DNA of 64,000 bases from assembly GCF_019649055.1 (NCBI RefSeq), contig NW_026570307.1, positions 62,001-126,000 on the forward strand, in the 5' to 3' direction. The position numbers were made by a program, and so were the translations under genes. Position 1 is the stretch's first letter, and every line of letters begins with the position of its first letter. The stretch comes from Paramacrobiotus metropolitanus (lineage: Eukaryota; Tardigrada; Eutardigrada; Parachela; Macrobiotidae). The notes under the pieces are model-generated. The model made no database searches. It saw nothing but the letters and a program-made list of their open reading frames with translations, and was not told the origin of the DNA. Shown piece by piece: positions 28,701-59,271 of the stretch.

Positions 28701-31513
28701 TACTCGCAATATACGAAAAACAAATAATTCAATATACACCTTTTCCTTGTAATTTTGTAAAATATGCGATAATCATATTCGTCAGTAGTGTATCGATAAT
28801 CGGTTCATGGTCATCAGCATTCAGAAAAGAGTTCAAATGCGAACAAAGCTGTTTTGGCGTGATCGTTTTTGGGAACGATACAAGTGTTTTACAGTCCTTT
28901 TTATGGACAGTTTATCGATCATCACCTACAAGCAGTTTTTAATTGCTGCGCCCGGAATCCAGCAAGTGTGTGTCGACATGTCGCTTCCAGGCTGGAATCA
29001 GCACAGCCGCCATTATTACTCGCCCAGCAGAATCAGCCAGATCGATATACACTGACATAACAAATTTCAACAGCATTCCAAGAGTCATCATTAAATAGTT
29101 TCGGAAGTTGGTGATATTTCTCCAGCATACTCACAGCTTTTATAAAATGTCTATAACTATTATAGTCCTTATTAATATTATAGTTTCTACACAACTTTTA
29201 ATAATTTTTTTACTGTTACTTGCAATTTAACGACCACCTTTTGTATGAAGGAAATGTAGTGCAGCCACAAGACAACGTGTAATCAAATTTACATATGCTG
29301 ATAGAAGTACGCATAGTTAGTGGAATATACTATGAAGTAATGTGTATTGCACTACATGTCTGAATTACACTTACAATAATGCAATAATGGTAACTTAAAT
29401 TCTTAATTAGCTGATTCGCATGCAGCGAAAAACTTAATCACAATTTCTAATTCTTAAAAACATTGTTTTAAGTTTAACTGTTTGATTGCTCTTCGCGTCT
29501 GTAAAAATTTATATTAAACGTTACAACTTTAAACTGTAGACCCTTATACGAAGCCTTTAATCTTCATTCACCGTCCATATTCGGTACAAAATCACGTATA
29601 GGAGCAAACCAAGCTTCAAGAGCAGATGTTACTGTTATACAGATTGTGGTCGACTCTTCATTACTTTCCTGAAGAGCACTTCTACTACTGTATCTTTCTA
29701 CACAGATAGATTAAGATATGCCGCTGAAGTGAAGAAGACGAAATAGCGCAGCCATTCCTCTGCGAATACTGTTGATATAAAATTTTAAATTACAATCGGT
29801 TATGACACCGCACCGACAAACAGGTCTCTTTCCACGACCAAATGGCCCAACTGAATACACATCGCAGAAAATTTCTCACACGCCTATAATGTTTTTCGCT
29901 AGCGGGCCAAATCTAGTATTCGTTTTTCCGGTTTGTAAAATTCGCGCTAGAATGGGAATTTTGTGGGGATTTTGCTCTAAATTACCGGTAAACTGCATCA
30001 AAATTCGTCAAATTTGAAAGGCGAACTTATTTGTTTTTTGATGCTGAGTGATCTGCATATATCCAGCACATGCTACAAAATGTCATAGGTTCTGCATGGC
30101 TGTGGGCAGTCGTAATTACGCAATTTACAAAATGCTTTCGTCAAATTGTCAGGGTTTGTGAAGCATCGTTTACACAGACGGAAGAATCATAAAAGGCAGG
30201 ACGTGGTGAATAGCTGGGGCTATGAAGTAGTGGCACGGGTGTTTACACTACGCGCGTGCAACAGCTTTTACAACCCAAAGTACAAATTGTATTTACATAG
30301 CCGCCCTTTTTACAATTAACAATAAGCACTGGTTGCCGGCCTCATTACAGTTACACTTCAAGGAAAAAGCCTGTACTTCATGCCGGCAGGTACACGAGGT
30401 TTTCCACGAAGTTTACTAAAGGCACCGGCAACACAAGTCAAAAACAGTATCTTAAAAAACTCTGAATACTTCTATTTAAGAAATCAAGTAATAAGAAGTA
30501 GTACAGATACATACAAGTAGCACATAGCACAAATGCTTGGTAGTAGATTTGCACCTAAAATGACATAGTTGCTGTTTGATTACAAAATTTGCAGAATAAT
30601 AATTGCAAAATAACCGACAGTGCCGTCATTTTGCTAATAAAGTCATCAGGCTACCACCGTAAATACGAGTACATAATTATGGTACACACATTATGAAGAT
30701 GTTAACTTGAGGCACTGTAAAACGCTCTCAACCTTCTGTCGTTTTTCGCAGATCATATTCCCGATTCTCGTGTCAATCTCTTTGCTCATCACCAATGCCT
30801 GGTTATTGGATTATCTGAAAAAACAGCTAAATGCCGGTCGGAATCTGCAAGCCGTCAGCTTTATGTCACGCACCGGCGATTTCTTCCGGAGTCATACGCG
30901 TCGTCACGACAATCTGACCCGGATGCTGATTGGCTGCGTGATGGTGTACTTCATCACACAGATTCCTGCCGTCATTCACAACACTCTCGACCATCTAAGC
31001 CATGCACCGTATTGCTGGTTTGATCTCACCGGTTTGCACTACGTTGACCCGGTCATCTCGACGCTGGCGCTGCTGAACTACAGCGTAAACTTTCTTGTGT
31101 ATTGCGGGGCATCGCATAAATACCGCCAACTGTTCTACCATGTGATACGGCAAGGCTCCATGGTCATCATACGGAAATCCCGCGGACCCCCGGGCCGAAT
31201 TCCTCAAAGTCCTAGCATGCTGTTTTCGCCCAGAAGGGATACATTGCGAAGAGTTTCCAGGCTCAGTCAGGCTGGCCATAGTGATCTGGATGGCCCACCA
31301 TCCGTTTTGTTGTCATCTGTACCGTCCAGGCGAGCATCGGTGGATCCAACGCCATTGGGCAGTGCGACCGTCAACGCCAGTGGTCAGAATGGAGACGGCA
31401 TTGTCGGGCTGCATCCGCTATACTCGCCACGCAGGAGCTCGGTGCCGCCGTATAATCCAGCGCAATCTCCTAATCTGTTAAACACTAGGTCGTTTCGGAA
31501 TCGTATACAATGA
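25736..31513 (+). CDS. Rhodopsin-class neuropeptide-type GPCR (GPCR2)
   Basis: Exons 25736-26037, 27501-27635, 27759-28002 and 30752-31513 give about 480 residues. The N-terminus has NNT and NVT glycosylation sites. TM1 has the GN motif (FLAMCTVGNILNLWILI) and TM2 has GMAISDMTIMW. The TM3 end reads FFSLERLIAFRFP, again LER instead of DRY. TM5 begins IIFPILVSISLLITNAW, TM6 has MVYFITQIPAVIHNTL, and TM7 has NYSVNFLVYCGASHKYRQLF. The C-tail of about 150 residues is rich in Ser, Pro and Arg. Intron positions and phases match GPCR1 exactly. Intron 3 is about 2.75 kb with no gene seen in it. The 3' end of this gene has been copied at 39165 and 50405. The family is FMRFamide/myosuppressin (Srw-like) receptors; the ligand is unknown. 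Confidence 0.88.
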
Positions 31514-31859
31514 GTGACCTTTCTGTTTGTATGACAAGGGCCATGCATTTACACGTTTAGTGGTATAATGGTACAATTTACTCTGGGCGCCTTTATTTTG
31601 CAATTTTAATGCATAAGCGTTCACCAGATAAAATGAAAAACGTACCAGCACTTCTAAACATTTACAGTAGCTTGCGTTGTAAAATCCACACTTAAATGTC
31701 TCATGTCGCGCAGTTGATCAGTATTCATCCTGACGAAAAAATAACAAGAAAACTCAAAGTACATGCTTCAGTAAAAATCAAAATCATAATCTCTGATATG
31801 TGATACAAATATAAATAAAGATACTTATAAATTATAAATGCCGGCAGAAAGGCAGAAGG

Positions 31860-32335
31860 AGGACCAATAAGGTTACCAGGACTGTTCCCAGCGCTATTGT
31901 TTTGGCTTTTGGTACTGTTGCAACTATGACTTCCTTGCGCAACTGGTAATTTTCTCCGAGACCGATCATCGATGTTGTTTCCAGCAGTCCGCTAATGGTC
32001 TGCAACTGGCAGCATTTATAGCGGACAATATCACACTATAGTTGGTAACTTGGTACATGATTTCTTTGCGGAAGGGCAGTCATCGAGACAACGCATTGCC
32101 CGACGCCAGGCGAATGTAGCTGGAGGTTCGGGAGTTGAGAGTCTGAGACTTAAGACCAACCAAAAACAATGTTATCGGAAAGCCTGATTTGGAAGAACAA
32201 CGGAAGAAATTTATACTGGTCCTGGTTGTTACGATTCTAGTACAGCGATGGGTGTGTACAGCGCATGTATGACCTTTGCGATGCCTAGACACATCGCCAG
32301 CGTGACCTGCTCTGGGGCAAGAAGGATAAAAAACC
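31860..32335 (+). pseudogene. Decayed 5' part of a membrane-family unit
   Basis: The sequence at 31860-32010 matches the conserved upstream block of the three membrane-family units (CAGCGCTATTGTTT, CCGATCATCGATGTTGTTTC). The sequence at 32060-32220 matches their exon 2 (the stretch coding for RSxxRLxEVRG) but has frameshifts and stops. It lies directly after the GPCR2 gene, where the duplicated tail copies also carry the same block. Confidence 0.55.
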
Positions 32336-32339
32336 GGAT

Positions 32340-34130
32340 GGCAAAGTGGATCCCGGAAACTGGGAAGTGGTGAGTTCTTGTCGGATTTCTTAATCCATTA
32401 AATAACTTACCGCCGTATACCGCAGAACGCTTTCTACTTTCTAATTTTTACTGTAGCCATCTGACTCACACTCATGATTCAGTAGGGAATGCATGCAGAG
32501 TGCAGAGTCACTGCAGAGTGCAGTGCAGACATAACATATTTATCTTTAGGTGCTGGCCGGTGCCGGTTTTTTCTACCGGGTGTCTGCGTTGGAGCAGTTG
32601 TTGTTGCCGGCATTTTACCATACCATGCCATTTACAACCAGATCGCAACCTACTCTGTAGACTCTCAGATACAAAATTTCTATGTTTTAGGCTTCGATTC
32701 CGCTGTTCGTGAGTTAGAACCTTTAAATTGGATGTACTCGCTTTTTTTACTTGACCGTTGATTAACGTTAATTCTTCAAAGCGGGATTAGCAGGAATATA
32801 TGACTAAGGCTCATTAAGCATCGTACATCTTTATGCTGTAAGTCAGTTGATTATTAACCATTACAATACAAGTACTTACTACTTTTCCCGATAAATCTAA
32901 TAACTTTGTTACTGATCATGTGTACTTTGTCCGTCTGTTCGCCTCCGTCGAATCGGAAGTCCAACCTACTCTAGACTGTTACAGTTACAGTGATAACTAT
33001 GAATATCGCGTATTTTATTCAACGTGAACTCGTTGAATAACTAAATTATTTAGAATTAAAAGAATTCTAAATTATTACAATCAGAGATTTGCTCGTTTGC
33101 AGTACCACGCCGTACAATGGCAACCCGGTAGCGGCAGCATACAACATCTGTACAATAATTACAATTATATTTACCAATGAAGAATGTGTGCATAGTTACG
33201 TGTATATCGTACATACAGTTTTACTTCGAAGAATGATGTATTGTGGAGATTTTATTATTGCATTTTCAGTCAAACACTACAGAATTAAAGGGAGATTTGT
33301 CGTGAAAATAATAAATATCATAAAATCACAATATAATATCATTTATAATGTTATCGGTATTATTTAACTTTAATCACATCATATTCACCCGTTTTGAGCT
33401 TTCTTTCACGATTATTGGCCTTATTATTTGGCCGTAACTAGATTTTCGATCCAAGATTTTCTCTTTATTGTTACCTTTAGCGTACACTCATTTTTCAGGC
33501 CTTTACCGGAAAGAGCCGGCAAATGTCTTATCACGAGTGACGATCTGTAAATCCCTCAAATTAAAACAGATAAAATGTGTGCTTTATCATTAATTTGCGC
33601 TGACTTGATTTGTTTGCCGTACTTCTACTCGTACTCCTAAAATCTTATAGCAAAATTTTAACTAATTAATTAGTTTTAATTTTAATAAACGTATCATTAG
33701 CATGAAAGAAAAACGAAATAACGAATTCTTTCGTATAAACGGCCAAAGAGAAACAGAACGACCGCGAAAATTAAAGAAAATAATATTTAAAATTTCCGTT
33801 CCGTTCCTTTCTTGGCATTTATCTGTATGATACACGTACAAAACCTTCGTCGTACGGCAGTAAAATAATAATTATATCGAACGCCTGAGTGTGTGCTTTG
33901 CGCAGTTACGTTAAATATTACAGAAAAATAACTATTATTTGAAAACAGTTAAATAAAATAATAAATAATATTTAAAGAATATTTGAAAATAGTTTATTCC
34001 GTCATAAAAATTACTCAAAAACATTTACTTTAATGATCGTAATCTAGAAAGTATTGCATGCAATTGACGCATCGATGCTGTATAAACGTGCGAACTTATC
34101 GTATCGAAACTAACAAAGCATCCCGTACAA
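32340..34130. repeat. Inverted duplication, arm 1 (partner 40370-42068)
   Basis: This region reappears reverse-complemented at about 40370-42068 with moderate divergence. It includes a short open stretch at 32551-32670 (VLAGAGFFYRVSALEQLLLP, after a CTTTAG acceptor) that is preserved better than its surroundings in both arms. The rest is AT-rich with no gene. Confidence 0.75.
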
Positions 34131-34718: not shown

Positions 34719-35464
34719 CAGTGGCGTAACGAGCCTAATAATTTGGGGGCCACGGCCCACCCCAAACGAAAAGTTATAGCATAGAGTCTATGGGAACGGC
34801 CTACCCCAAAGCCAGTACTTGTGGCTAGGGATGCCAAAAACTTGAGTTAATAACTTGACTTGACTTTCGACTCGGGTTTTCCATAAAGTCAAAATTTTTA
34901 AATTACTTGGACATCCAAGTTAATTTTTTTGACTTGACTTGGAAGCTCAAGTCAAGTTATTAACTTGAAGTCGACTCCAAGCCGACTTGAAGTCGAATAA
35001 AAAGTAATACGAAAATTTGCGTATAGGGGAAATATCAGACGTCGCACAACCGTTCCATGTACTGCTCCAGCCACCCGCCCGGAGTTTTGCATCATGGCTG
35101 CATATGCAGCCGTGTGGCCATATTCCAGTTCGGTGGCTGGAGCAGTACAGCGAAAGTGTGTTGTACGACAACATTATCAAAATATTTTAAAGAAATAACG
35201 CAGATATCGTCGGTTCACTTTAAATTCTTCAAATGTTTTTAAAACATTGTAAGTCGACTTGAAGCAGAACTTGAGAACTTGGTTTCACAAACGAAGTCGA
35301 CTTCATTGACTTGGTTTGAAAGAATAAGTTCAAGTTAATAACTTGACTTTTCGTCCAAGTTTTTTCGATTAACTCAAGTTATTAACTTGATAAGTCGACT
35401 TCGCCAAGTATTTGGCAACCATACTTGTGGCCCACCCCAAACCTTTGAGCTCGTTACGCCGCTG
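34719..35464. mobile_element. hAT-type MITE, 746 bp
   Basis: Terminal inverted repeats CAGTGGCGTAACGAGC and GCTCGTTACGCCGCTG match at 15 of 16 bases. An 8-bp direct repeat CTTCCCGA flanks it at 34711-34718 and 35465-35472. Both features fit the hAT superfamily. The interior has repeated AACTTGACTT/AAGTCGACTT motifs and a large hairpin around TGGCTGGAGCAGTACA (about 35055-35150). It has no transposase. The paralogous sequence before unit 3 (about 45325-45345) lacks the insert. Confidence 0.88.
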
Positions 35465-35850
35465 CTTCCCGAGTAACGTCGGTTGCAACTTGCAACAGGT
35501 TGCTTACAGCTTATATAGAAGAAACTGGGCGTTTATCTGTTGCCAGCAAAGGCAGGAGGAAGACCAATCAGGAATCCCACCAGCGCTATTGTTTCGGCTT
35601 TTGGCACGAGTTCAGCTATGCAACTTTGTCGCACAGTTCCTCCCGGTTCGATCATCGAAGTAATTGTTTCGAAAAACTTTGTAGAAAACAGCTCAACGCA
35701 GTGTCTGGACATTTCGCCACGACGACGACGTTGTATGCAGTCAATCTTCAGCTTTTCCGTTTGTGGCTTTTTCTGTTAACATCATTTTCGTGTGTAACAA
35801 AGCGTTGACTGATATTTATTTATTCTCGGACCACTCTACGATTGCAAAAA

Positions 35851-37136
35851 ATGTTCAATCTATTCTTTTTCAAGAAAGGTACTCCCCTACAAAGTTTTTT
35901 TAATTATATTGTGTTTTCGTATCATCGAAGTATGCTCAGGAAATTTTACAGATTCTAAAAACTGAGGATTCCAAAATCAGTCTGCTAACGGTCCACATTC
36001 ATGTCCACGTTGATATAACGGGCAATTTCATAATATTGCAACAAGATTTCGTTGCAGATGGATGGTTTTCGGGGCGACTCAAGGCCCGCAGTGCCCGACG
36101 GTTGGAAGAAGTGCGCGGGTTACGACCCACCAAAAATAATTTCATTGGGAAGCCTCCTTCGGGCAAAGGTCATCGTAAGAAATTCGTGCGATCCTAGTAA
36201 CGATGATCTCTACAGTTTGCATACGTACTTCATAGATGTTGCATCCACAACCGTTTTAATAGCGCTACGCATATGTGCGGATATTGTGTGACATCATTTT
36301 GAAGTCTAGTGTATTGTACATACGGCGGCGCATACGCACATGAGCTTTTCGTTAACAATATTTTCTAACCCATCATTCTCATTTAACAGGTGTTTGTTTC
36401 TTTCATATACTCGTACTGAAAAATATGTAGAAATGCAGAGACTGCTTGTGCAGAAATGCAGATTATATTTATATGCAGAAACCGCTTTTTTCTTTTTTAG
36501 TTTACATTGCTAGTACGCCAGTGCCGCCGTAAATTCTGTTTTAACGCTTCGATCGGGAACACCATAAAGCAAGCTGCACGTTTTTCGCACATGTTATAAT
36601 TTAATAGTACAAAACAATGAATCCCATCAATTTTTGTCTAGCTTAAAATTGTTAACAAGTTAACTTTTACAGGCATTCGGATCACGGCCACGCGCTATTT
36701 CTTCCACAAAGAGTCGCCAAATCATTTGCGCGGTGTAAGTGCAAACTGCAAACCCGAGTAAAACAGTTTGTAAAAAATACGTTAGCTAAACGTTAGTTAA
36801 AGGCCAAAATTCGAACACTGTTCGAATTTTGGCCTTTAACTAACGTGTAGTTAACGTATTTTTTACAAACTGTTTTACTCGGGAAAGCATATTCGTATGC
36901 GATACGTACACACTACTCGTAAACCTTGGAAGTGTTCTGAAAACACATGAATGTTTTCGCTTTAGTCACTGTGTTTTCGTATAATTTATGATACAACTTT
37001 TCTGTGCAAGTGTAATAACTGTCTCTAATTATAAGCTCTGGTCACACCGTCTTTTGCATTTTATATCTAGATTGCTACAGCTCGCAGTGCGAAGTTGTAC
37101 GGAGGTAGAAAACAAAAAATGTCGACTAATATTTAA
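35851..37136 (+). CDS. Membrane-family unit 1, short form without TM exons
   Basis: Predicted exons 35851-35878, 36058-36174, 36673-36734 and 37071-37136 give about 90 residues. It is the paralogue of units 2 and 3. Exon 1 is a 28-nt start (MFNLFFFKK), exon 2 codes ARSARRLEEVRGLRP then FIGKP, and exon 3 (62 nt, as in the other units) codes RYFFHKESPNHLRG. Exon 4 starts IATARSAK and runs into a stop after 21 codons, so the membrane segment of the relatives is missing. It may be a truncated gene or a decaying one; exon lengths and phases are still intact. A 131-bp palindromic insert lies 18 bp past the exon 3 donor. Function unknown. Confidence 0.5.
36753..36883. mobile_element. Palindromic foldback MITE, 131 bp
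   Basis: A near-perfect palindrome: the arm starting CCCGAGTAAAACAGTTTGTA at 36753 is mirrored through the end at 36883, with a loop of a few bases around 36818. No clear target duplication was found. It sits in intron 3 of unit 1. Confidence 0.7.
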
Positions 37137-38555
37137 TTTAACACAGATTGCTGAATACTGAGTAGTGTTGCATACGGCTTTTAATTTCATATCTGCTGCT
37201 CAATTCTGCTGCGTTTTTTTAGAAAATCACTAGAAGTACTGTCAATCGCGATCACTCACATGACGCCGACGGCCCGACGTCAACGGGATCGCTGGCGGAA
37301 CTGATAATGAACGCTCCTCGGATGGACGCAGGTAAATCATGTTGACCAACGGTGGATGAGAGTAACAAATAAAAATAATTAATTTCAGAATTATGAGATT
37401 TTTTCTAATTAATTTTTAATAGTTAATACAACGACCGTATAGGAACCGGCGCGTCTCGAAAACTGCGAAAGCCACTGCGAATATTGAACAGATGATTACA
37501 CTGAACACTTTTGAAGGAACCGTAGGTGTTCAAATTACACAGGTTTTACTGTAGTAATTTCCTTCACATGATTATTGCTAAATTATATTTGTGTACGCAA
37601 AACCGCATGCAGTATATGAAATGATACTTTTCACTTATCCTTATGTCTTTAATCTCACAAAAATTCCTTCCCTTAAATTATTTTAGACCGCAATAGCATC
37701 TGAGCGAAGCCGAAGATGGCGCTTGCGTAACAGAATAATATGAATATACTCGTATGATAAATTATTATAACAGTAGTAACAAAACTTGTACAATCGCATA
37801 TCGAAACGAGTATCGAGTATCGCTATAAACACATGTCTAAAGTATTACGTGAAGTACAGTACTTATCTGTACAATACTTACAGACATTTATACGAGTATT
37901 TTTAGTACGACAACGGTACTATCAGTCACGGACATTTTGTTTTTAGTACGCCGCAAAATGAAGTTCAGTTAGACACAAGTCGCCAGCGTAGTCCCAGGGA
38001 CAAGAATAAAGACAGCAAACGTAACGACAAGGTTGAATTTGAAGATGAAACTGGCCACGGAAAGTGGTAATTTAAATGGCACCTTTATACAGCATAAGTA
38101 ATAGTTCATCGTTTTTTGTTTATAGTTTATCGCGTTAACAATTTTTAGACTCGACTCAATAGCCCTCATGGCTAAACATAAAGGTAAGCAACAAAACCCG
38201 AATTGTAAACAGTGAAAAGAATTGCTACAACAGTACAGTCAGTACTATGGCACGTTATCAAAGGTGCAGCCTGCACTCTGCAGTAGGTTTGTGATCAAGA
38301 AATGTGTAGTTACTCCTGTAGATTAATTGCGATCATATCACTTTCTAATGTGATTTGTTGCTGCTGTTTTTATGACGCTATCCACTACACTCAAGGTTAA
38401 CAAATGTTCATTTCGATCAAATATCTATATAAGTTTCCTACGCTCTCACAGTTCTTGCCTTAAAAGTATTCAATTTGTCGCGAACGTTTTTATGCGATCC
38501 TGAAAGCGTTTTTAATTTAGGTATTGCTCTGATGCATTTGGATTCATATTAGTGC
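37137..38555. other. Region without an assured gene
   Basis: Two short exon-like stretches follow unit 1: 37262-37331 before a GTAAAT, and 37965-38070 coding TSRQRSPRDKNKDSKRN, which vaguely resembles the RQRRNSSEERKKAK tail of unit 3. They may be remnants of its 3' exons. A mini-exon-like ATG before GTAAGC stands near 38168. Confidence 0.25.
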
Positions 38556-38559
38556 GATG

Positions 38560-39140
38560 TCATCCTGATGAAGTATCCCGTTAATGTGTGCTGGTTTTGT
38601 AAGAATTTTGCTTCTGGATTAGTTTTGTGTTTTCCGTAATATGCTGATATTTTTTTACTTTTCGATTTTTGCGATGTTTGTTAAATGCGGTTAGACAAAC
38701 TGGTGCGCAACAAACCTTTATTTTTTTTCGTATACGCAGTGGCTGACACTTGACAATCTCACAAAGATGCGTCGCTTTTACCATGCGTATCTTGCATACT
38801 TACGATTGCTAGAATTACTCGGGATTCATTCCCCTCTGTATTAAGTCTGTTTTTCGGCGATTTTGCAATGCATACCAGATGATTACGAAAAAATGCCATC
38901 AGCTACCCATTTTGTTCTCCATATCGCTTTGTCACATAGCGCTTCAACCGTTAACATTTACAGATGCAGTTGCTATAGGACTGCACTATTAATCTTTATA
39001 TTTAGTAATTAAATCTAAGGAACGTAACTGGTCAACTTTTCCAAACAAGAATTATAAAAGTACCAGGATTTATCAGCGGGATTCTGGTAGTGCCCATATG
39101 GATCGGCCACCGGCAGTTTCGCCATACGTGTCCAACGAAC
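38560..39140 (-). pseudogene. RNF14 3' flank and last-exon fragment
   Basis: Positions 39061-39140 match the intact RNF14 last exon (about 51328-51405, around the ICM...GDPYGHYQDP codons) with substitutions. The sequence to the left resembles the RNF14 3' flank (CGCTTTGT...CACATAGC). It is non-functional and sits next to a GPCR2 tail copy. Confidence 0.65.
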
Positions 39141-39164
39141 GGACGATTGTACTGCTGATTTAAC

Positions 39165-39540
39165 CTCGAAGCTGGCCCTGCTCAACTACAGCGTAATTAC
39201 GCTGTAGTTTACGCTTTTACGCTAGAAGAAAGTTTATAAATTTTTGCTGCATTTTGTCTTGTGCATCGCATAAATACCGTTTGTGTTTTACCATCTGATA
39301 CGGCAAGGTTCAGTGGTGATCATCCGGAATTCTCGGGGCCATTGCGAAAAGCCTCAAGGGTTAATCAGGCTGGTGATTTAGATGGCCGGTTGCGAACGCC
39401 ATGCAGTGGTCAGAATGGTCGGGCTGCAGTTGCACCCGCTATATTCGCCACGCAGGAGGTAAGTGCCGTCGTATAATCCAGCGCAATCTCCCAATCTGAT
39501 GAACACTAATTCATGTCGGAATCGTATACAATGAGTGATC
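39165..39540 (+). pseudogene. Copy of the GPCR2 last exon, broken
   Basis: It matches GPCR2 from the TM7 region (LLNYSV) to the stop (GTATACAATGAGTGA). It is interrupted by an altered stretch at 39195-39260, including a small palindrome (ACTACAGCGTAATTACGCTGTAGT), and by deletions that destroy the frame. Confidence 0.8.
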
Positions 39541-40235
39541 TTTCTGTTTGTATGACAAGGACAAAGCATTTGCACAGTTAGTGGTATAATCGTACGAAGT
39601 TATTCTGGACGCCTTTATTTTGCACTTTTAATTTAACGCATAAATATTCACCAGATCGATGAAATGAAAAAAGTACCAGCACGTCTAAACATTTAGCTTG
39701 CATTACACAATCCACATCTACTTAAAACTTAAAAGTTTTATGTCGCGCAGTTGATCAGTGTTCATCCTGACGAAAAAAAAACACAAAATCCACAGAGTAG
39801 TTGAGTAAAGACCATAATCTCTGTATGTGATACAGTCATCCAGATATGAATAAAGATATTTATGGATGGCATTTATGGATGGCATAAATGCTGGCAGAAA
39901 TGCAGAAGGAGGACCAATAATGTTACGAGGACTCTTCCCAGCGCTATTGTTTCGCCTTTTGGTACTGTTGCAGCTATGACTTCTTGCGCACCGGGCAGTT
40001 TTGTCCGAGACCGATCATCGATGTTGTTTCGAGAAATCCGCTAATGGTTTGCAGCTGACAGCATTTATAACGGACAATATCATACTATAGTTGGTACATG
40101 ATTTCTTTGCGGAGGGGCGGTCGTCGAGGCGATGCATTGCCCGACGCCAGGCGACTGCAGCTGGGAGATCCGGGAGTTGAAACTTAAAACCAATCGAAAA
40201 CAACGCTATCGATCGGAAAGCCTAATCTCAGTAGT
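39541..40235 (+). pseudogene. Copy of the GPCR2 3' flank and decayed membrane-family unit
   Basis: Collinear with 31514-32220: the same flank, the same conserved upstream block (39910-40060) and the same degenerate exon 2 (40090-40230). This shows that the degenerate unit was duplicated after it decayed. Confidence 0.65.
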
Positions 40236-40369
40236 GGAAAGAATTTGTACTGTGTGACCTTACGACGATAAACAATGGCAAAACAATTATTTTGACACTT
40301 GGTAATATGTAATGTACAAGGTGCCGTACTTGTTAATATACTGTATAGTTATTGCTCTGTATGTTTGTA

Positions 40370-42068
40370 ACTTTGTACGGGATGCTTGGTAGTTTCCATA
40401 CTATAAGTTCGCACGTTTGTAGCATCGATGCATCGATATTAACTCGCACATGCGAATACTTTCTAATTATGGTCAATAAAGTAATTTGAGTAATTTTTAT
40501 GACGGAAGAAACTATTTTCACATAATATTTATTTTTTTGTATTATTTAAAGTAATTACGCAAAACACGCTCTCACGCACTCATCGCGTTTGATATGTTAT
40601 ATTATTTTACTGGCGTACGACGAAGGTTTTGTACGCATTATCATCATGCAGATAAATGCCAACAAAAACAGGAACGGAACGGAAACAAACACTTTCTTCA
40701 ATTTTCGCGGTCGTTCTGTTTCTCTCTGGTCGTTTATAGGAACGAATTCGGTATTTCGTTGTTCGTTCATGCTAATGATATTTTTATTTGCTATAAGATT
40801 TTAGGAGTACGAATACGGCAAACAAATCAAGTCAGCACAATTAAAATGATGAGGTACACATTTGTCTGTTTTAATTTGAGGAAAAAATGCGTATTCTATG
40901 TGATTTAGATCGTCACTCGTGATAAGACGTCTCCCGGCTCGTTCCGGTAAAGACCTGAAAATGCGTGTACGCTAAAGAGGAAATCTCCGATCGAAAATCT
41001 AATTACGGCCAATAATCGTGGAAGAAAGCTAAATACGGGTGACTAAAATACGATGCTATCAAAGTTAAATAATACCGATGACATTATAAATGATATTATA
41101 TGATAGTATATTATGATAATAATTATTATGATATTTAACATCTCTACGACAAACCTCCCAAGGTTTAATTCAGTAGCGTTTGATTGACAAAGCGATAAAA
41201 AATCTCCACAATGGGTTGTTCATAAATATGCACACATTCTTTATTGATAAATAATTGTAATTATTGCACAGATGTACGAGTATGTTGCCGCTACAGGCTT
41301 ACTATTATACGGCGTGCAGGTATTGCAAACGCGCAAATCTCTGACTCTAATAATTTATATTCTTTTTAATATCCTAATAATTTAGTTATTTTAATTCGAC
41401 GAGTTCACGATAAACAAAATACGCGATATTTCTAGTTATCACTCTATCTAGATCTGTAATAGCGATTCGACTTCCGATTCAACAGAGGCGAACAGACGGA
41501 CACGTAATATACACAGTAATATACACGATCAGTAACAAAGTTACTAGATTTATCGGGAAAAGTAGTAAGTACTTGTATTGTAATGGTTAATAATTAACTG
41601 ACTTACCGCATAAAGATGTACGATGCTTAATCCTATATTCCTGCTAATCCCGCTTTGAAGAATTAACGTGGTTCAACGGTCAAGTAAAAAAAGCGAGAAC
41701 ATCCAATTTAAAGGTTATAACTCACGAACTGCGGAATCGAAGCCTAAAACATAGGAATTTTGTATCTGAGAGTCTACAGAGTAGGTTACGATCTGGCTGT
41801 AAATGGCATGGTATGGTAAAATGCCGGCAACAACAACTGCTTGAACGCAGACACCCGGTCGAAAAAACCAACACCAGCCAGCACCTAGAGTAAAGATAAA
41901 TGTGATGTCTGCACTCTGCATGCATTCCCTACTGAATCATGAGTGTGAGTCAGAAGGCAACAGTAAAAATTAGAAAGTAGAAAGCGTTCTGCGGTATACG
42001 GCGGTAAGTTATTTAATGGATTAGGAAATACGACAAGAACTCACCACTTCCCAGTTTCCGGGATCAAC
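40370..42068. repeat. Inverted duplication, arm 2 (partner 32340-34130)
   Basis: Reverse-complement copy of 32340-34130 with scattered differences and indels. It ends directly at the conserved upstream block of unit 2. Confidence 0.75.
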
Positions 42069-42084
42069 TTTGCCATCCGGTTTT

Positions 42085-42366
42085 TTTTCTTTTGGCACGA
42101 ATACAGCTGTGCAACTTTCTTGCACAGTTTCTCCCAGTTCGATCATCGTAGTAATTGTTTCGAGGAAATTTTGTGGAAAACGGACAAACGCACTCGCAGT
42201 CTGGACTTTTCGTCACAATGCCAACGTTTTCTGTAGAAAGTGTCAGTCTTATTCTGCTTTTCCGACGGTCGTCACTCGTCAGTGCCCTTTTAATTTCTGT
42301 TAACGTCTGTAGAGTTAAAGCGTTTCCTGATATTTCATGATCAGATAACTTTTGCGATTCAACAAA
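42085..42366 (+). promoter_or_regulatory. Conserved upstream block of the membrane-family units
   Basis: The block TTTTGGCACGAATACAGCTG to TTCGATCATCG and beyond recurs at similar distances before unit 1 (about 35595-35680) and unit 3 (about 45480-45560), and in the two decayed units (31900, 39950). Its position about 180-270 bp before each first exon suggests a promoter and leader, but it may only reflect shared ancestry. Confidence 0.4.
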
Positions 42367-44102
42367 ATGTTCAATTGGTTTTGGTTCACAAAAGGTAATC
42401 CTACGCGGACAATTTGATTATATCGCGTTTTTGCAATATCTGTGTATGTTCAAACAGCTTATACAATTGAGGAGTTCTGTACGTGATCATGAGTGCGAAA
42501 TCAATCCGTTAACGGCTGGCAGTGTTTATTCGTTTAACGAGCGGTACCGCAGTGTAACAAATGATTTCGTTGCAGAGGGATGGTTATGGGGTCGACGCAA
42601 CGCCCGCAGCCGCCAGCGATTGCTGGAGGTTCGTGGGTTACGACCCTATAAAAACGAGACTATTGGCACACCTGGCCCGGGTAAGACAGTTCATTGTGAC
42701 CTTTACTGATGCGATTCTGATAGTGTAGGTACGGCGCATACACTCGCGCATGTGCCTTTCGGAGTAATACAGCAAATAGGGTACTGATATTATCGACAGA
42801 AAATAAGTTTTTTTATGTGCCCAGTACGCTAATGTTGCATTAAACTATGTAAACCAAAACGACTGTTTATACAATAGATTATCTGTCCGAAATCCATGAA
42901 ATATGCAGCTAATCGTTTTCCACACAAGTTTTTCATTAGGACAGCTCGATACCTTGCTCTGGAATTTTTAAAAAGTTAGTTTCACAGTTTTACTGTTTTA
43001 CAGGCCCACGGATTCTGGTGAAAGGAAAATTCTTCAGGGAGAAGTCACCCAACCATCTATTCGGTGTAAGAGTGCTACAGATGTCAGCGTAGCGGTGCAT
43101 ACTAAGTAGGGATTTCACATATCAAGATAAAACAAATTATGGAAAAAAATGTTCCTTATCTGTCTGTTAAAAATGGTTTTGTGTATAAAATAGCGCCGTC
43201 ATGTTTTATAATTTCGTATTCATACGACAGAAATTAATCTGCTGTTGAAGCACAGTGTGAGCAGCGTTTGGGTTGCACGAATGATGAGACAATTATTCAA
43301 TTGGTCAACGTTGGAGACACTACTAATATTTTTCAATGTACATGTGTTATGGCAGTTGTTGCTAGTTAATGGTAAGTAAATGTTATTTACTGTACTATTT
43401 TAACTAATTGTATTTAACTAGAACGGCTTTCGTTTTTTTATATCTAGGTTGCCGCAGCTCGGTTTAAAAGATTCAAATCACGTCCGAAACTGGGGGCCAT
43501 TGTGGAAGCGGAGCCTAGCCCGAATGCCAGCACGGTATGCAAAAAAAGTACAATTATAATCGTATCCATAAGATACGAGTACTTTGTAAAACGCAAAATG
43601 AATGCAGCAATGCAATGCACATGTAACCTGTGGGTAATAACTGCTGGATTTGATTACATCTAATGCTCGAACCAGTCACCAGCCGTAATTGAGTTTTGAA
43701 GCGATATTTTTTAAAGCTTCACACAAATGGTAAAAACTCTAGATTATCGGATATTTTTTTTCAAAAGGTTATTTAGATTAGTACGTTTTTTAGATCATCG
43801 AAATGGGAACCGTGGGATTGTACAGAAAAAAGAAGAAATCATCAGCAGCCTTGTACCGGTATCGTAGTGGTCAACAAATTCAGGTGAATGTTTTCATACC
43901 GGTCGAGTCATATTTTTGTTTTGTGTGTTTCAGTCCGGCAGCAGCACTGTTGCTGCTGACGACGCTGGCGTTCGTCTTGCTTCACTTTGCCGCTACATGG
44001 CTTGTGCCAATTAATGGAAATAACGCGGGCGGACCGGGCCCACCACCGGTTACTTCGGCCGTGGGGGACTTCGGGCCTTCCTTTAGGCCAGTATACGTGT
44101 AA
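42367..44102 (+). CDS. Membrane-family unit 2, single-TM protein
   Basis: Predicted exons 42367-42394, 42576-42680, 43004-43065, 43448-43534, 43794-43858 and 43934-44102 give about 171 residues. Exon 1 starts MFNWFWFTK. Exon 2 codes ARSRQRLLEVRGLRP. Exon 3 codes KFFREKSPNHLFG. Exon 4 is basic then acidic (RFKRFKSRPKLGAIVEAE). Exon 5 is Lys-rich and ends at CG|GTATCG, as in unit 3. Exon 6 has a membrane span (PAAALLLLTTLAFVLLHFAATWLV) and a Gly/Pro tail ending FRPVYV. The basic side before the span suggests the N-terminus is cytosolic. I do not recognise the family. A GTAAGG overlapping the stop could be a donor that extends the protein. Confidence 0.55.
43281..43371 (+). CDS. Possible alternative first exon with signal peptide
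   Basis: This lies in intron 3 of unit 2. ATG ATG AGA begins a 30-codon frame with a hydrophobic run (LLIFFNVHVLWQLLLVN) that ends at a strong GTAAGT donor. Its phase (1) does not fit the exon 4 acceptor in the main frame, so its partner is unclear. Confidence 0.2.
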
Positions 44103-45320
44103 GGTCAGTTTCACTAGTACCAACTTCGGGAAACGAAACAGGATCGCTTCTCTATAATTGCACCAGTACTACAATAATCTGTAGATCAATAAGTATTTTT
44201 ATTGTTGGCCACTAGTGTATCCACCAACGGCTGGTTAAAGTAGCATAGTGAGTATACTGCTCGCGCTATTACTGGCACTTAAATTTCGCAAGAGATATGA
44301 ACTGGACCAGCAAGAGATATGAACTACATAGTACTTTAACTTTAACTGTGTAACATATGCGTGCACTAAATAAAATGCTTGTTTTGATAGCCCACAATGC
44401 CCGCGATTTTTTCTCCCGGTGGATCTGAAGGGAATTCGGTCCGTCTGGATCCCCGGAAGTGGTTGCCCTGAAGTGGTTGCTATGTTTACCGATTTTAAAA
44501 GAATACGTGTGCTGCCGAACGTATCATTTGCCTTATATCTGATTGTCGGGAATGATGCGGGATTCGTTTTTGTGTTTTTCCTCACAACCGTGCGATTTGC
44601 AGTTTAAGTACTTAATTATTTTGCTGTGTCGACTGTTAAGCTTTGTTTCCATTGTTTGCAGTACAACCAGCTCATAATCATAATTAAATAAAGATAACGA
44701 TCGTGTACGCCAATGATAAGCACGAACACGGAACCGTTTTTTGGCTCATCGAAGCCAGTGTCGCGATTGCCAGTTGCCACTACGAATCGTTATCGTCGCA
44801 TAATCGTAACAGTCGTAGTATAGCAGGCGGTGTAGTTGCCGCATAATCTAACAGTGTTGCCGCATAATCTAACAGAATCTTTTAATTTTAAATTACTTAC
44901 TGAATGCTGATATACTGTGTGCTAGCAGTGGTCGCTGCGAAATCTTATAAAATGAGTGACCTTTATTTTGACAAGAATATACCCAATCAATAATTGACTG
45001 TTACTAAATTACGTTTTTTGCAAGCACAGTTTCCTACAAATTCGATCAGCGATGGCAGAAATGACTTCAGTTTTCAAATACCTAGTAAAGCACATAATGT
45101 AATTATACACCGTTATGTACTGCAGTATGTACGAGTATTTATTTATAAGAAGTTTTCGTGCGTTGTGGTAGCATTAGCAAGTGAAAGTGTTTCCGACAGG
45201 AAAAATATGGTGCTAACGTACTCACAACGGCCAAGTGCCGAACATTCTTACTTTCTTAGGAAAAATTTTGCAGCACTGCACGTTTTCGATAGATCAAAGG
45301 GAAACCGCCGTTATAGGACC
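44103..45320. other. Spacer between units 2 and 3
   Basis: A possible extra exon of unit 2 (about 44400-44471, after TTGATAG) and a short match to the GPCR2 end (ATGAGTGACCTTTATTTTGACAAG near 44952) are seen. No supported gene. Confidence 0.3.
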
Positions 45321-45697
45321 GCAGTTGGCACACGCTTCCCGTTTACCAGCCGCGGTCAGGGTGGTTTATACGCAGGAAAACGTTGGGCGTTCACAACTTC
45401 ACACACTTTCTTACACTGTTGCCAGCAGGGCAGAAGGAGGACCAATGAAAGAAGGAGAAATCACGACGACTCTCCCTAGCCCTATTGTTGCGGGTTTTGG
45501 CACGGTGACAACTATGCAACTTTCTTGCAAATTTTCCCCCATTCGATCATCGAAACAGTTGCAATAATTTAAACTTGACACTTAACAGCCAGACGCGTTT
45601 TCTGGACGTTTCGTCAGCCGCATTTGCAGACGATTGTCTGGTTTTCAGTTAGTTCAACCTGAAGCGTTCTTACTTCAACCATTTATTAAGCCGAATT

Positions 45698-48600
45698 ATG
45701 TTTGACATCTTCGGAGTGAAAAAGGGTAGGAGTACTGTACATGCATATTAATATTACAGATTAATTTTAACGCTAATTGATACAAGGAACTGTAAGAAGG
45801 ACCAAGCGAGCTAAGCCAACGGTTCCCACTTCTCATCGTACACAGAAAGAGTACCTGAAAAGCATTTTATGCCTGTGTATTAAAAGTGACATCAGCTTCG
45901 ATGTAGGTGCGCGTTCATCGGGAAAGTACAGCGCTCGAAGCGCTCAACGCCTAGCGGAAGTGAGGGGAGAGCGTCAAACCAGCTCTTTTATTGGAAATCC
46001 TGAAGGAGAGGGTAAGAATTTTTGATGACCTTGATTGTTGAGATCGTACCAGAAAGTCGTATAACGCGCGCGTGTCTTTCGTACACAGATTAATTTTGAG
46101 AAAGAATGTACAATATTAATAATTTCATTCGCGCAAAACTTCGCCAGTACTGGGCTGGCATAAATAAAGCCCCTCGCACTGAAATTAAATATTTTATTGG
46201 TGAAATGCTTTTTTGCAGGTGACGTGGTCTATGTCACTGTGAAATTTTTTCTGGACAAAACGCCAGGAGGCCTTCACGGAGTAAGTGTACTGAAAATCAA
46301 CAAAAATTAATGAGCGCTTTAAGTTATTGCTTACTAGTTAATACATCAAATTTTAAAGCTTTTAGTATTGGACAAAATATTGTTATTTATGGCGCAAACT
46401 AGTAATTAATAAAAACTTGTAGTTTAAGGAATATACAACGACTGCATTTTTAAATAGTGCTCATACTGTCAAAGGCGCAAGCCGTTATGTTTGATAAAAA
46501 TTTTGTTATTTCATAAAGTATTTTTATAATTTAAATAACTTGTGGTACGTCAATGCATCATTCGTCATAAAATCGATGTCCTAGTTGTACTCTAATAGAG
46601 CCTGCTTAATAGTGCATGATGGTAGTGCGTACAGGCCTTATAACCAAAACATCTAAAGATACTTGTTAATTATATTATAGGTGCACGTCGTTCGTACATT
46701 CCTTATTATCCGTAAACCGTACATTACAACCGTAATTATTCGTACCGTACTACCGGAGGTGTTTGATAGTAATTATTGTGCCTACTGCAACTGACATTTA
46801 TTCTGCGAGTATAACATTAACAGAGATACCAATAATACCATCGCATGTTTAGTTCGCGCAGAACACTTTCGTATAAAAACTGATCAGCTCACTTTAAAAT
46901 AATCGCTTTGCAAAGGGCGCACATGCAAATGTTTTCCCACTTGTCGGATGTTTGTCAGTCTGATGGCTTTCATTTCGTGTGCAGGTTCCCGCAGTACGGA
47001 GCGAACAATTCAAGAGCAAACCAAAACTGGAAACAATAGTGGAGGTTGAAAAAGATTCTACTGGAACGAGCACAGTATGCAAGAAGTATTCTCAGAAAAA
47101 AATTCAGAAAATTAAATTAATTTAATAACTAACAGAAGTCTCTGGGTTGTCGATAAGTATGTATGTTGTAGCTAACTGTCAGTCGTTTTAAACCGGCGTG
47201 CATGCTGGTTGTTGTAGACCAGTCGTTAGTTAGGCCTCGTCCCGAATTCAAAGCGAATCTCGTTGCGATACAGCAACTCCACCTCGCGAGGTGGCTTCGC
47301 GTACCGTATCTGTAGGCGTGGCCACTGCATACAGCCACCTCGTGCGGTTGAGCAACCGTACCATAGCGAGATTCGCTTTGAATTCGGGACAAGGCCTTAG
47401 TAAGATAATACATGTCACCAACAGCAGATGCTCGGAACTGCTGCCATTAATAAGCACTCATCAAAGCTTGTGGACCATTTACGCTCGAAAATTATTATCA
47501 CTGAATACTGAGAAAACTCACTGACGGATATCTGCGATTAGTTCAGTAAATGTAAAATTGTTAAATAATCGTTGTATAATTTAGGCGGCGCTGAAACTGG
47601 GAACTGGAAAACGAAATACGAGAATGTTTCGGTATCGTCACTGCCTGCCAATGAACTATACCTGATTTCATACTGATTGATATAAAATCGTATTTTAGAT
47701 ATTTTTATTGTGTATTTTATATTGCCATATTGTATTTTAGACCGGCAGCTGTCGTGTTATTTGTAATGATGTTTTGGGTCTTAACGATCAAATCGGTCAG
47801 CGCGCATCAGCCGTCAACAACTACTATCACGGTCTGTGGCATCGCGGCGACTTGGATCGGCGGCGAAGGTCAGTATTAACAAAGCTTGGGAATGCACAGT
47901 ATTCGCACTGCACAGTACTTAGTAACTACTTACTATGCTGGTTCAGCCTGGTTGACCATACAGATTATTAATTCGGTATTGCAAGTACTTCTGTGATCAT
48001 CGACAGCGCATGTGCCGTTAGTTTTGTCTTACAATTTACAGCATTAGTTATTTGCTTGGTTTCTTTTACAAGCTTACAATGCACTGGCGGAGACTAATAT
48101 GTACGTGCAAATGGTGTATCAAATGCTTATTAATTTGATAGTCCTCCAAGCACGAAAATGCGTGTTTTGCTGGGTGAGAGGGGAACCGCCTCATACCGAC
48201 TGTCCGGAAGTCATGTTGTTGCTGGTCGGCGGATTTGCTTTTCTTGCAATCCTTCTTGGATTTCTCCGTCTGCATGGACAAGAAAAGGTATATAAGTACA
48301 GATATCAAGATATCAAGTCATAACCCGTTTTGAGAAAATAAACTGGCGTGATTGATTTTTTTTAAGGAATCAATTGTGGTTCGTGAGCACCATGGTGCCG
48401 GTGGCGAGCGGGATCACATCGTGAATATGGAACCGAACAATATGCCGCCTGGTCCAAATGATACGTTTCGGTAAATTAAGTAAATGTTAACTGGTCACTT
48501 TATAATCGCATACATATAATATGTATACTGTATTGTTATAATTATTACTTATCTGTATACTTATGTCTGGCGTCAATGTTACTAACATGTGACGGAAGCA

Positions 48601-48872
48601 GTTAATCTACGTATTTTGAAGAGTTGCTATTCTACAATGGTCAGCTACTTCTTGTTAGCACGCCGATGAATGAGAACACAGGCACAGGGGTACCGCGCCA
48701 ACGCAGGAATTCAAGCGAGGAGAGAAAAAAAGCTAAAATGATGGAACAACAAAAAGCACAAGTAAGTACTCGTACATATCCGGTGACCGGTGGTGTTTTC
48801 CACAATTATCGTACCTTCTATACTTTCTAGCGTTCCGGTTTTCCCGTGGAGAGCGTCCATGAGGCCGGCTAA
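45698..48872 (+). CDS. Membrane-family unit 3, long form
   Basis: Predicted exons 45698-45725, 45907-46011, 46219-46280, 46985-47074, 47585-47631, 47741-47868, 48073-48287, 48367-48470, 48659-48761 and 48831-48872. All phases agree, giving about 307 residues. Exons 1-6 match unit 2 in order, phase and (exons 1-3) length: MFDIFGVKK; ARSAQRLAEVRGER...FIGNP; VKFFLDKTPGGLHG; FKSKPKLETIVEVE. Membrane spans are about PAAVVLFVMMFWVLTI in exon 6 and EVMLLLVGGFAFLAILLGFL in exon 7. Exon 7 also has a weaker segment (MYVQMVYQMLINLIVL) and a cysteine pair (CVFC). The C-terminal third is polar with a basic stretch (RQRRNSSEERKKAK), ending SVHEAG. Intron 4 carries a Harbinger-type MITE. I know no family of this kind; function unknown. 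Confidence 0.6.
47233..47396. mobile_element. PIF/Harbinger-type MITE, 164 bp
   Basis: Terminal inverted repeats of about 30 bp (GGCCTCGTCCCGAATTCAAA at the left, mirrored by GAATTCGGGACAAGGCC at the right), flanked by TTA on both sides (47230-47232, 47397-47399). TTA target sites and GG-starting ends fit PIF/Harbinger. It lies inside intron 4 of unit 3. Confidence 0.8.
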
Positions 48873-50019: not shown

Positions 50020-50356
50020 TTGACGTACGGCAAAGGGAAGTTTGTATTGCGAACACGCTTTGGAGTTCTGAGACACCTAACTGAGGCTTTAATTTCGACG
50101 CCACGGTTATTCAGTCCCGTTTTCCCGCATCGTTCTCCATGATGAGCTTGGTCCTGCAGTATTCGCCTCTCTCGCATTCACCCACGGTAAAGCACTTCTC
50201 ACCATCCAACTGACACGGCTCGATTCCGTGGTATCCGACAACAGTTAACATAGAAAACACAGGACTGATAGAAACATCGTAAACAACTTCCGGCGTCGAT
50301 TTCACTCCTTTGAAAACGGCTTGGTTGCACCATGATCGCGTACAGTACACGACATC
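50020..50356 (-). pseudogene. Copy of RNF14 exon 4 (IBR region), broken
   Basis: It keeps DVVYCTRSWCNQAVF and YHGIEPCQLDGEKC, matching intact RNF14 exon 4, but zinc-binding cysteines between them are lost and the 3' half is out of frame. Confidence 0.8.
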
Positions 50357-50404
50357 CTGCTTTGTTGCGTCTTCGAAATGAAGACGAATTGTCAGGTTGC
50401 GTGA

Positions 50405-51143: not shown

Positions 51144-54104
51144 CTACACACGGTTTAAGAATTCTCTCAGTCCATCTAAAATCAGCCTTCCATTGACTTC
51201 GCCGTGGTCGGCACCGAAAGCGTCGAACCAACGCTCAGGAACAGCATCATCGCCAAACAGTACATCTTCCTCCTCGTCATTATCTTGATCGTCAATCTGC
51301 ATGCCCAACATAAGATTCATGTAGCACGATTTATTTGCAGGATCCTGGTAGTGTCCATATGGGTCGCCTATCGGCAGCTTCGCCATACATATCCAACAAA
51401 ACGGACTGGCACATTTCGTGCACAACATCTTATTGCATCCACCCATTTTCTAGTAAAAAACAACAAAACAGGTATTTAATTTCTAGTAAACCACGAAAAT
51501 GTTTAGGGAGCAATAGCGCAAATCACATAACAATATCGGTCGCTTATCGGGGAAGAACATACAAAAACTCAACGCAATCATTGGTGAAGATCTCGCGCTC
51601 TGTCAGCTCACAATGTCGGAAGCGTTTCTCACAAGACATCTGGGCTCAAGTACGTACTGCCGCATATTCCAAGTTCCAATCAGCCAAATAATACAATTCT
51701 CAATATGCACTTAAACTTTCATAACATCATCATGATTAAAATTACGATGTAACTTGGTTAAACCGAAATTTTAAAGTGATACTCCATGAGTATCGACCGG
51801 AGAGCAAGAGACACTTATGAACTGCAAGCTACTGTAATTCAAAACATCCCTGAATAAATATCTGGAGATTAGTAAACCTTATTACTTATGTAATTACAAA
51901 ATTTCACTAATGTGAACACAGAATAGTACCGTGAAGATAAATTATGTGATACTATTGCTCGTACATTATTTCATTAAAACAATTTTACGATCAAATGTAT
52001 TATTGCTCCAACCATGGCATGAACAGCTTTCCGAAGTACCTCGACAGGAAATTTGCATTTCGGACACGGTTTAGAGTTCTGCGACACCCAATCTTCCGCT
52101 TTGATTTCATCACCAAGGTTTTTCAATCGCGTTTTCCCGTATCGTTTCTCCATGCTAAGCTTCGTCTGGCTGTCAGCTTTCTCGTATTCATCCACGATTA
52201 AGCGCTTTTCACCATCCAATGGGCACGGCTCGATTCCGTGGTATCCTCGGCGACAGTTAACACAGAAAACATAGGCGCATCCTGGACAGCGTCCGGCGTC
52301 GCTTTGGCCCTCTTTGAGCACGGCTTGATTGCACCATGGTCGTGGACAGTACACGACGTCCTGCAATTTCCGAAAGAAACATTAAAATAAATCTTTTTTA
52401 AATGTTTGCATTCGCACAATAAAGCTGCTTTTATTCCAAGCAACTTTTCTAGAAGCGAAACTGGATTGAAATGAAACGTCCAAAGATGAGTCGTTTGTAC
52501 TGCTTTTAGCATTAGTGTCTACGCAGTAAATTCGAAAGAATAATGAATTATTTCGACATAATAACTATGGCAAAATGGGATTCCTAACCAGTAAAATCAA
52601 CTTTAATGTGCCGATTTACTATTTACGATGTCTCTCATCAGCATACCTCCATTAAAGATAACGCATTATCCAACTGGAATTTCTGATAGCGACTCCAAAA
52701 CACCGGATCCACCGACGCCTCAATATCAAAGGGATTCAATTCTTCCGAGCATTCCAAACACTGCAGCTTCTGCACCGATCCATCACGTATCAGACTATCA
52801 CACAATCCCTTCATGCAGGCTTTGCAGACGAAATGTCGGCAGTTGGTCAGGCGGATGAAATCTGTGCCCGGATGCGTGTCAAAACATACATTACAACGAT
52901 GCGTATTCTGCTGGAAGAGCACCACGGTCCGGTTGTCGTCGTAGTGCTGCAAAGAGCGGAGGAAGTTGTCAGCGTGAGGTACCAGCAGCAGATAGTTGGA
53001 CTCCATTTTGGCTATAGTCTCGTTGGACTGGGAGAAGCTTTCTCTGGAAAATATGGGAAGGCACGGGGCTGTGAAAGGAAATAACCGGAAGCTGGCAGCG
53101 AGGTCGGAGACGGACTGGAAGAATTCGAAAAGCACGGCCTGGTGGCCATTCTGATCCCATAATACTTTAACGCGGTGTTCTAACTGCTGAACCTGTAACA
53201 CATCTCGTGTGAAAAATCAAAGAAATCATAGCTATTACAGTACTTAAGGATTAGTTTTACCGTGCGATTAATCCGCGATTAAATTAATGCTTACGATATT
53301 TTGTTACAAATTTAAAATTCCCGTATTTTAAAACAGAAAAATAAAAACAGTTAAAAATAGGTAGTCGAAGTTAAAAAAGCAGCCGGTTAGCCACAGCACT
53401 CAGTCATTTCAGTGTACCTGTAAATTCTGTACGCAACAATCAACATGACTGTATCTGTTACAGTTACACTTACACATAATTATTTATTTCACGAAAAAAG
53501 CAGCAAAATTGAAGCAAATATTTAAGAAAAAATTTGAGCCGAAACGTTTTACCAGACGTCGAGGGATCCAACAGGCTGTAACACGAATTTCGGGAGAACA
53601 GTGCGAAGGGTACCCTTCAGGGTAATGGAAATGTATTTGTATCGGAGGCAGATACGATAAATGCGAATGCAGGCCTTTAAAGTCCTCGTTCAACAATTTC
53701 GTCTTGTCCTGCAATTCCAGAAAATCCGCTTTTATTTCTATGAACACTGATATTGTTTTCACTTAAAACTGTACAATATCCTTCGAAATTTTAACAGAAA
53801 TATAACAATAGTTTCGGGATAGTTAACGAAACGCAAAGGGAGAGGGGAGCAGTGGAGTTCGTTCATATAGATATTCAACTTTTACACTCACCTCCTGGTC
53901 TTCAGTGTTCAACCATTCATTCAGCTTTTCCACTTTCGGCGGAGAATCCACAATTATAGCCGTGATACCCAATTCAAAAAATGGACAAATCTCCAAAATC
54001 CCACTGGCATTTTCATCGGATTTCCGAAATTCTTCAGGAGACAACAGTGATTCCAAGCAGAGAACTTCGTCTCGCTGCAGTTCCAGATCTCCTTCGGAAG
54101 GCAT
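51144..54104 (-). CDS. RNF14: E3 ubiquitin-protein ligase RNF14-like (RBR type)
   Basis: Exons 54104-53892, 53708-53553, 53192-52647, 52360-52040 and 51449-51144, all phase 0, give about 513 residues. Residues about 1-125 are the RWD domain (LPPIQIHFHYPEGYPSH). RING1 begins HRCNVCFDTHPG and includes CRHFVCKACMKGLC. The IBR spans DVVYCPRPWCNQ to FCVNCRRGYHG. RING2 has CPKCKFPVEKMGGCNKMLC, whose GGC cysteine corresponds to the thioester-forming residue of RBR ligases, then CWICMAKLPIGDPYGHY. The tail is acidic (DDQDNDEEED), as in human RNF14 (474 residues). RBR ligases take ubiquitin from an E2 onto the RING2 cysteine before transfer. Known RNF14 roles include a response to stalled ribosomes and nuclear receptor coactivation. 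Partial decayed copies lie at 38560, 49040 and 50020. Confidence 0.92.
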
Positions 54105-57400: not shown

Positions 57401-58015
57401 TTTTTTTTTAATTTATTAAAAAAAGGACCAAAAGGTAAAAAGTGTTATTATATGGTTACTGTGCGTTTACAGAGCGTACTTGCGGTTGCATTGCACAAAG
57501 TTTGTTTTATAGCAGAGTTAATACACATTCCTTGGAAATAAATGTAAGAATAGTAGACTTTCATTCGTTTGTTATTTATTTTGTACTTTTATTGCAATAC
57601 TTATTAAAGGTTTCACTCCTAGAAATAGTAAAATTTTGACTGCGGAGCTTCCGCTACAAGTGTCAGTTTCTCACTATTACAGCATCAAAGTTAAAACGGT
57701 CCTGAGCTTTATCTAATCTGAAAATATGCCTGACAATAACAAACAAAAAATTTACAATCTATGAATTTTTTAATATTGTTCCTATCACATACCCTTTTAG
57801 CTGTCGAAGAACAAAGCGAAAGTTTTTCGCCTTATTTGCGTATTCATGCTTTCGCTTAAGCTCTGAACAGCGACACTTCCAATGGATTTCATGTTAGAGT
57901 GGATGTGTGAACGCCGTCACTGAACAAGACGCTAAGTGCGTTAAATGAACCGAATTGCGTGAATAACACGCATCCCAACCCTCCAGCAGGATTCGATCAG
58001 TCGTGATGATCTAGT
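54405..58015. mobile_element. 3.6-kb element with long terminal inverted repeats
   Basis: The left arm (about 54405-55385) and right arm (about 57075-58015) are near-identical inverted copies beginning ACGAGATCATCACGACTGAT and ACTAGATCATCACGACTGAT. GAGACGGTAG is repeated on both flanks (54395-54404 and 58016-58025). Long arms and a 9-11 bp target duplication suggest a Mutator-like or foldback element. No transposase is seen in the 1.7-kb centre, so it is non-autonomous. Each arm holds short tandem repeats (units with GCACTCGGGTTAAGA). Confidence 0.85.
55530..56147. repeat. Internal tandem duplication, 2 x 309 bp
   Basis: Two nearly identical 309-bp copies, each starting GGTAGCCATTGAGCCAAACC, lie in the centre of the long-inverted-repeat element. 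Confidence 0.9.
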
Positions 58016-59197: not shown

Positions 59198-59271
59198 GCA
59201 CCGATATATATATTTGTCGCCAATACGCTCTGCAACCTCACTCAAAACATTCACAATTTCTAACCGCCAAC
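59198..59271 (+). promoter_or_regulatory. TATA box and leader of the secreted protein gene
   Basis: GATATATATATTTG at about 59201 lies 70 bp before the start codon, with an initiator-like CTCACTC at 59238. The start context is CCAACATGG. Confidence 0.5.

Follow-up and report, generated by a model that had tools for sequence, protein, structure and literature searches.

Unrecognised membrane proteins make up a large unread portion of tardigrade genomes, and one locus of Paramacrobiotus metropolitanus raises the question of what kind of family such proteins can belong to and why neighbouring copies encode proteins of three different lengths. Within the window (the whole stretch of DNA analysed, 64,000 nucleotides of contig NW_026570307.1), we rebuilt three tandem genes, units 1 to 3, from the DNA sequence, with all exon junctions being predictions and GT-AG found at every predicted intron:

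35851..37136, + strand: unit 1, 90 aa, predicted model plus homology; exons 35851-35878, 36058-36174, 36673-36734 and 37071-37136 (stop)
42367..44102, + strand: unit 2, 171 aa, one span, predicted model; exons 42367-42394, 42576-42680, 43004-43065, 43448-43534, 43794-43858 and 43934-44102 (stop TAA)
45698..48872, + strand: unit 3, 307 aa, three or four spans, predicted model; exons 45698-45725, 45907-46011, 46219-46280, 46985-47074, 47585-47631, 47741-47868, 48073-48287, 48367-48470, 48659-48761 and 48831-48872 (stop)

The rebuilt models retain the common exon layout of the original prediction, with exon 1 measuring 28 nt and exon 3 measuring 62 nt in each unit, and the intron phases match (1,1,0 in units 1 to 3, followed by 0,2 in units 2 and 3). 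The motif ARSxxRLxEVRGxR is present in all three units, while FFxxKxPxxLxG, previously ascribed to all of them, is exact in units 2 and 3 only, with unit 1 having FFHKESPNHLRG instead. The earlier end of unit 1 exon 2 needs to be changed, most likely to 36174, because the donor sequence there (GTAAGA) is the better one. Furthermore, we place the exon 5/6 junction of units 2 and 3 at the donor CG/GTATCGT, with the acceptors TTTCAG/TCCGGC (unit 2) and TTTTAG/ACCGGC (unit 3). Translation across it gives YRPAAALLLL for unit 2 and FRPAAVVLFV for unit 3, with RPAA in common, and this junction is preferred since its splice sites are better and both conserved stretches are explained.

Similarity among the three units is far beyond chance (exon 2 by tblastn: units 1-2, 6e-11 and 2e-9; units 1-3, 9e-6), with a protein identity of 38-43% between neighbouring units. 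The frame held open through the ten exons of unit 3 had been read as a sign of function; the chance of 307 codons without a stop is ~8e-8, as computed from the local stop frequency and before correction for the free choice of splice sites. Across exons 1-4, pN lies below pS in 1000 of 1000 bootstraps for each pair of units (pN = 0.32, 0.37 and 0.39 and pS = 0.61, 0.85 and 0.88 for units 1-2, 1-3 and 2-3, respectively), and the third codon position carries most of the differences. The dN/dS of units 1-2 is 0.33, which is not near 1. For units 2-3, the pair for which such an estimate had been proposed, pN is again the smaller value, with synonymous sites saturated in both pairs that involve unit 3; this saturation indicates that the gene family is old. 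Alignments of unit 3 introns with those of units 1 and 2 score hardly above shuffled sequence. Coding constraint on the three units is real, with purifying selection evident on exons 1-4 in pairwise estimates that include the earlier history of the units.

A probable reason for the differing protein sizes lies where exon 6 ends. In unit 3 this exon closes with GAA G/GTCAGT, and in the same frame and phase unit 2 reads TAA G/GTCAGT; the stop of unit 2 is the last full codon before a donor-like site, at which unit 3 splices onward (AAG/GTCAGT). The 9-mer AAGGTCAGT occurs in the 64-kb window only at the exon 6 ends of units 2 and 3, with a chance expectation of ~0.24 at equal base frequencies. 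Past the membrane span, exon 6 is not confidently alignable, and the case for truncation therefore consists of the motif together with its phase and position. On the simplest reading, unit 2 would once have run on into exon 7 and then have been cut short, making it a shortened copy of a gene like unit 3; unit 1, which stops within exon 4, may likewise be a truncated copy. Judging from a comparison among the copies of this array, the change would have gone from long to short. Behind unit 2 lies one candidate remnant of the lost part:

44327..44495, + strand: candidate exon 7 relic, with 1.4-2% of shuffles scoring equally high

It is weakly suggestive only. Downstream of unit 1, candidate remnants of exons 8 and 9 were rejected: as DNA they equalled the top 1.5-2% of shuffles, but as protein they did not exceed shuffled sequence; the exon 8 candidate, in addition, is not the best-scoring place for that exon in the window.

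The original prediction of three size classes is thus borne out as to the proteins themselves (90, 171 and 307 aa), but designed forms are not the best reading of them, because unit 2 ends where unit 3 splices on and because the array holds two wrecked copies. The sizes probably reflect copies with lost ends rather than designed types. Alternatively, soluble, single-span and multi-span products could be distinct working forms kept by selection, the long one being modulated by the short ones via the shared N-terminal region. In favour of this we observe N-terminal regions that are intact and constrained in all three units, a unit 1-unit 3 distance (pN = 0.37) no greater than that of units 2 and 3 (0.39), and an upstream box common to the units. 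Nevertheless, we consider this quite unlikely, given that the stop of unit 2 occupies the final codon ahead of a donor in use in unit 3, as a chance mutation would place it, and that dead copies lie within the same array.

The array comprises at least five copies, that is, units 1 to 3 and two pseudogenes that were absent from the original prediction:

31841..32190, + strand: psi0, a decayed copy with the upstream box and an exon 2 remnant, exon 1 deleted and the frame broken
39885..40230, + strand: psi1b, a second decayed copy with an exon 1 deletion identical to that of psi0 and a broken exon 2 frame

Both pseudogenes sit in a duplicated block that also holds the tail of a Srw-like GPCR gene lying upstream (30677-31513). 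The block includes a 1.8-kb segment found at 32322-34130 and 40373-42092 in opposite orientations, with no third copy in the genome and with a membrane-like open stretch (32549-32761) that a stop interrupts in the second copy. We rejected a repeat family as the source of this inverted pair, its two genome copies both being at this locus. In addition, a fragment at 39060-39144 resembles the downstream RBR/RING gene, and the duplicated blocks with their pieces of GPCR and RBR neighbours are ordinary local segmental duplication. Genome searches, which have limits for weak matches, place copies of the membrane-gene family at this locus only.

With two sister copies dead, units 1 and 2 both shorter than unit 3, and a donor-like site behind the unit 2 stop, it is possible that unit 1, alone or along with unit 2, is an unexpressed pseudogene and that unit 3 is the sole gene. 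We regard this as doubtful: the remaining exons of units 1 and 2 show neither a frameshift nor a broken splice site, and pN is well under pS, though earlier history contributes to this difference.

Other rearranged or repeated sequences are scattered over the window. A near-perfect 131-bp palindromic foldback with dozens of genome copies occupies 36753-36883 in intron 3 of unit 1, and further palindromes are found at 35041-35169 and 47226-47403. Lying 3' of the array is a duplicated fragment of the RBR/RING E3 ligase gene (50036-50360 vs 52047-52364, 77%), followed by an inverted pair of ~600 bp with 83% identity (54405-55000 vs 57467-58015). At the other end, 4111-4509 and 5111-5437 form a direct duplication ~1 kb apart, with an identical minus-strand translation of ~80 aa, beside a putative hydroxylase/JmjC-type gene. 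Finally, 59182-60213 holds a single-exon open frame (343 aa, stop to stop) that probably encodes a signal peptide and matches no Pfam family.

Upstream of each live unit we observe a conserved untranslated box:

35582..35659, + strand: box of unit 1
42090..42148, + strand: box of unit 2
45478..45554, + strand: box of unit 3

This box measures ~75 bp, lies some 150-270 bp 5' of the ATG, and shows an identity of 79% between units 3 and 1 and of 85% between units 3 and 2, exceeding the conservation of both introns and exon DNA; it is still recognisable in psi0 and psi1b. Because its indel lengths are not divisible by three, the box is not coding. We rejected a known RNA (Rfam and tRNA searches gave no match) as well as a dispersed repeat, since the genome search matched copies of the membrane-gene family only. 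The box is probably a promoter element common to the family, and its retention in all three live copies suggests that units 1 to 3 are probably co-regulated.

At the protein level, hydropathy agrees with the proposed difference in membrane spans at the 3' ends, giving none for unit 1, one for unit 2 and at least two clear ones for unit 3. Unit 3 has three clear spans, with a possible fourth near residues 139-157. The net charge of residues 1-112 is +18 for unit 2 and +8 for unit 3, and a strong span comes next; under the positive-inside rule this would make the N-terminus cytosolic; with four spans, the N- and C-ends of unit 3 would both be cytosolic. A single-sequence fold prediction of exon 7 alone gives two helices (2-36 and 44-69; mean pLDDT 81). 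The proteins would thereby present an N-terminal segment that is basic and cytosolic, carried by one span in unit 2 and by three to four in unit 3, and any function past membrane placement is conjecture.

We find no convincing match to the protein in Pfam, NCBIfam, PHROGs or PDB, and the earlier statement that no family with this layout was known agrees with the searches, which covered these libraries, prokaryotic and viral contigs and the family's own genome. The sole Pfam match, a weak one of the exon 6-7 part, is AA_permease_2 (PF13520; E = 0.0025-0.0044, 16.4-17.3 bits against a gathering cut-off of 27 bits). NCBIfam and PDB sequences gave nothing, and PHROGs gave one weak match, to a family of unknown function. 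We rejected an AA_permease_2 identity because the match is below the cut-off and 1 of 10 shuffled controls scored E = 0.014 against a different family. If the protein were a known animal membrane-protein family's strongly diverged member, beyond the reach of profile recognition, it might produce such a sub-threshold match, and the fast evolution of the units (synonymous saturation, 38-43% protein identity between neighbours) points the same way; yet with 16-17 bits, the shuffled control at E = 0.014, no match among PDB sequences and too few spans for a permease, we think this unlikely. Transfer from prokaryotes or viruses was also rejected, as GTDB and IMG/VR contigs contain no relative. A search of the literature on tardigrade families of this sort returned nothing specific. 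Units 1 to 3 and the psi copies thus appear to be a lineage-restricted family as far as Pfam, NCBIfam, PHROGs, PDB, GTDB, IMG/VR and its own genome go.

Taken together, we favour as reasonably probable a tardigrade-restricted family shaped by local tandem duplication and decay, with gains and losses at the array and an ancestor resembling unit 3. In this ancestor, the N-terminal region encoded by exons 1-5, bearing ARSxxRLxEVRGxR and FFxxKxPxxLxG, would have been short, basic and cytosolic; exons 6-7 would have supplied three or four spans, and exons 8-10 a polar tail. Unit 2 would have lost its 3' part through a stop in the last exon 6 codon and unit 1 through one within exon 4, while psi0 and psi1b would have died and the three live copies kept the upstream element. 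More tentatively, and with low certainty, the conserved N-terminal region could bind a cytosolic partner or an acidic lipid at the membrane face, where the spans would position it, acting as anchor and perhaps as an assembly part. The truncated copies would then be single-span and soluble versions of the contact region, or be heading for loss. The protein-level distances of units 1 and 2 to unit 3 are much alike (pN = 0.37 and 0.39), which suggests, again with low certainty, that the short copies were recently constrained or still work. It seems improbable that this is a tardigrade-specific membrane-protein family whose soluble and single-span copies, products of truncation, are kept to regulate the multi-span copy, with one promoter element common to all. 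Although the array has no direct bearing on any long-standing open question, its live, truncated and dead copies, its upstream box and its splice-junction stop offer a tidy test of truncated-paralogue function.

With respect to known systems, the family resembles CAHS in being lineage-restricted (here as far as tested) and multi-copy in a tardigrade genome, but CAHS proteins are heat-soluble rather than membrane proteins, their genes lie on many contigs of this genome rather than at one locus, and we see no sequence relation between the two. The many CAHS matches mark the genome as that of a eutardigrade; a telomere pattern expected for tardigrades gave no match. In its membrane part, unit 3 weakly matches the profile of AA_permease_2, in the APC superfamily, whose transporters have 10-14 spans as opposed to three, at most four, candidates in unit 3; with a score far under the cut-off and no support from PDB sequences, the protein is not assigned as a member. 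The family also resembles birth-and-death tandem families in general: we observe linked paralogues with equal exon phases, truncated and decayed copies in the array, a shared upstream element and purifying selection (pairwise). Among the features tested, the unrecognised protein alone sets the family apart from these. To the extent tested, it is a lineage-restricted family of a well-known evolutionary kind.
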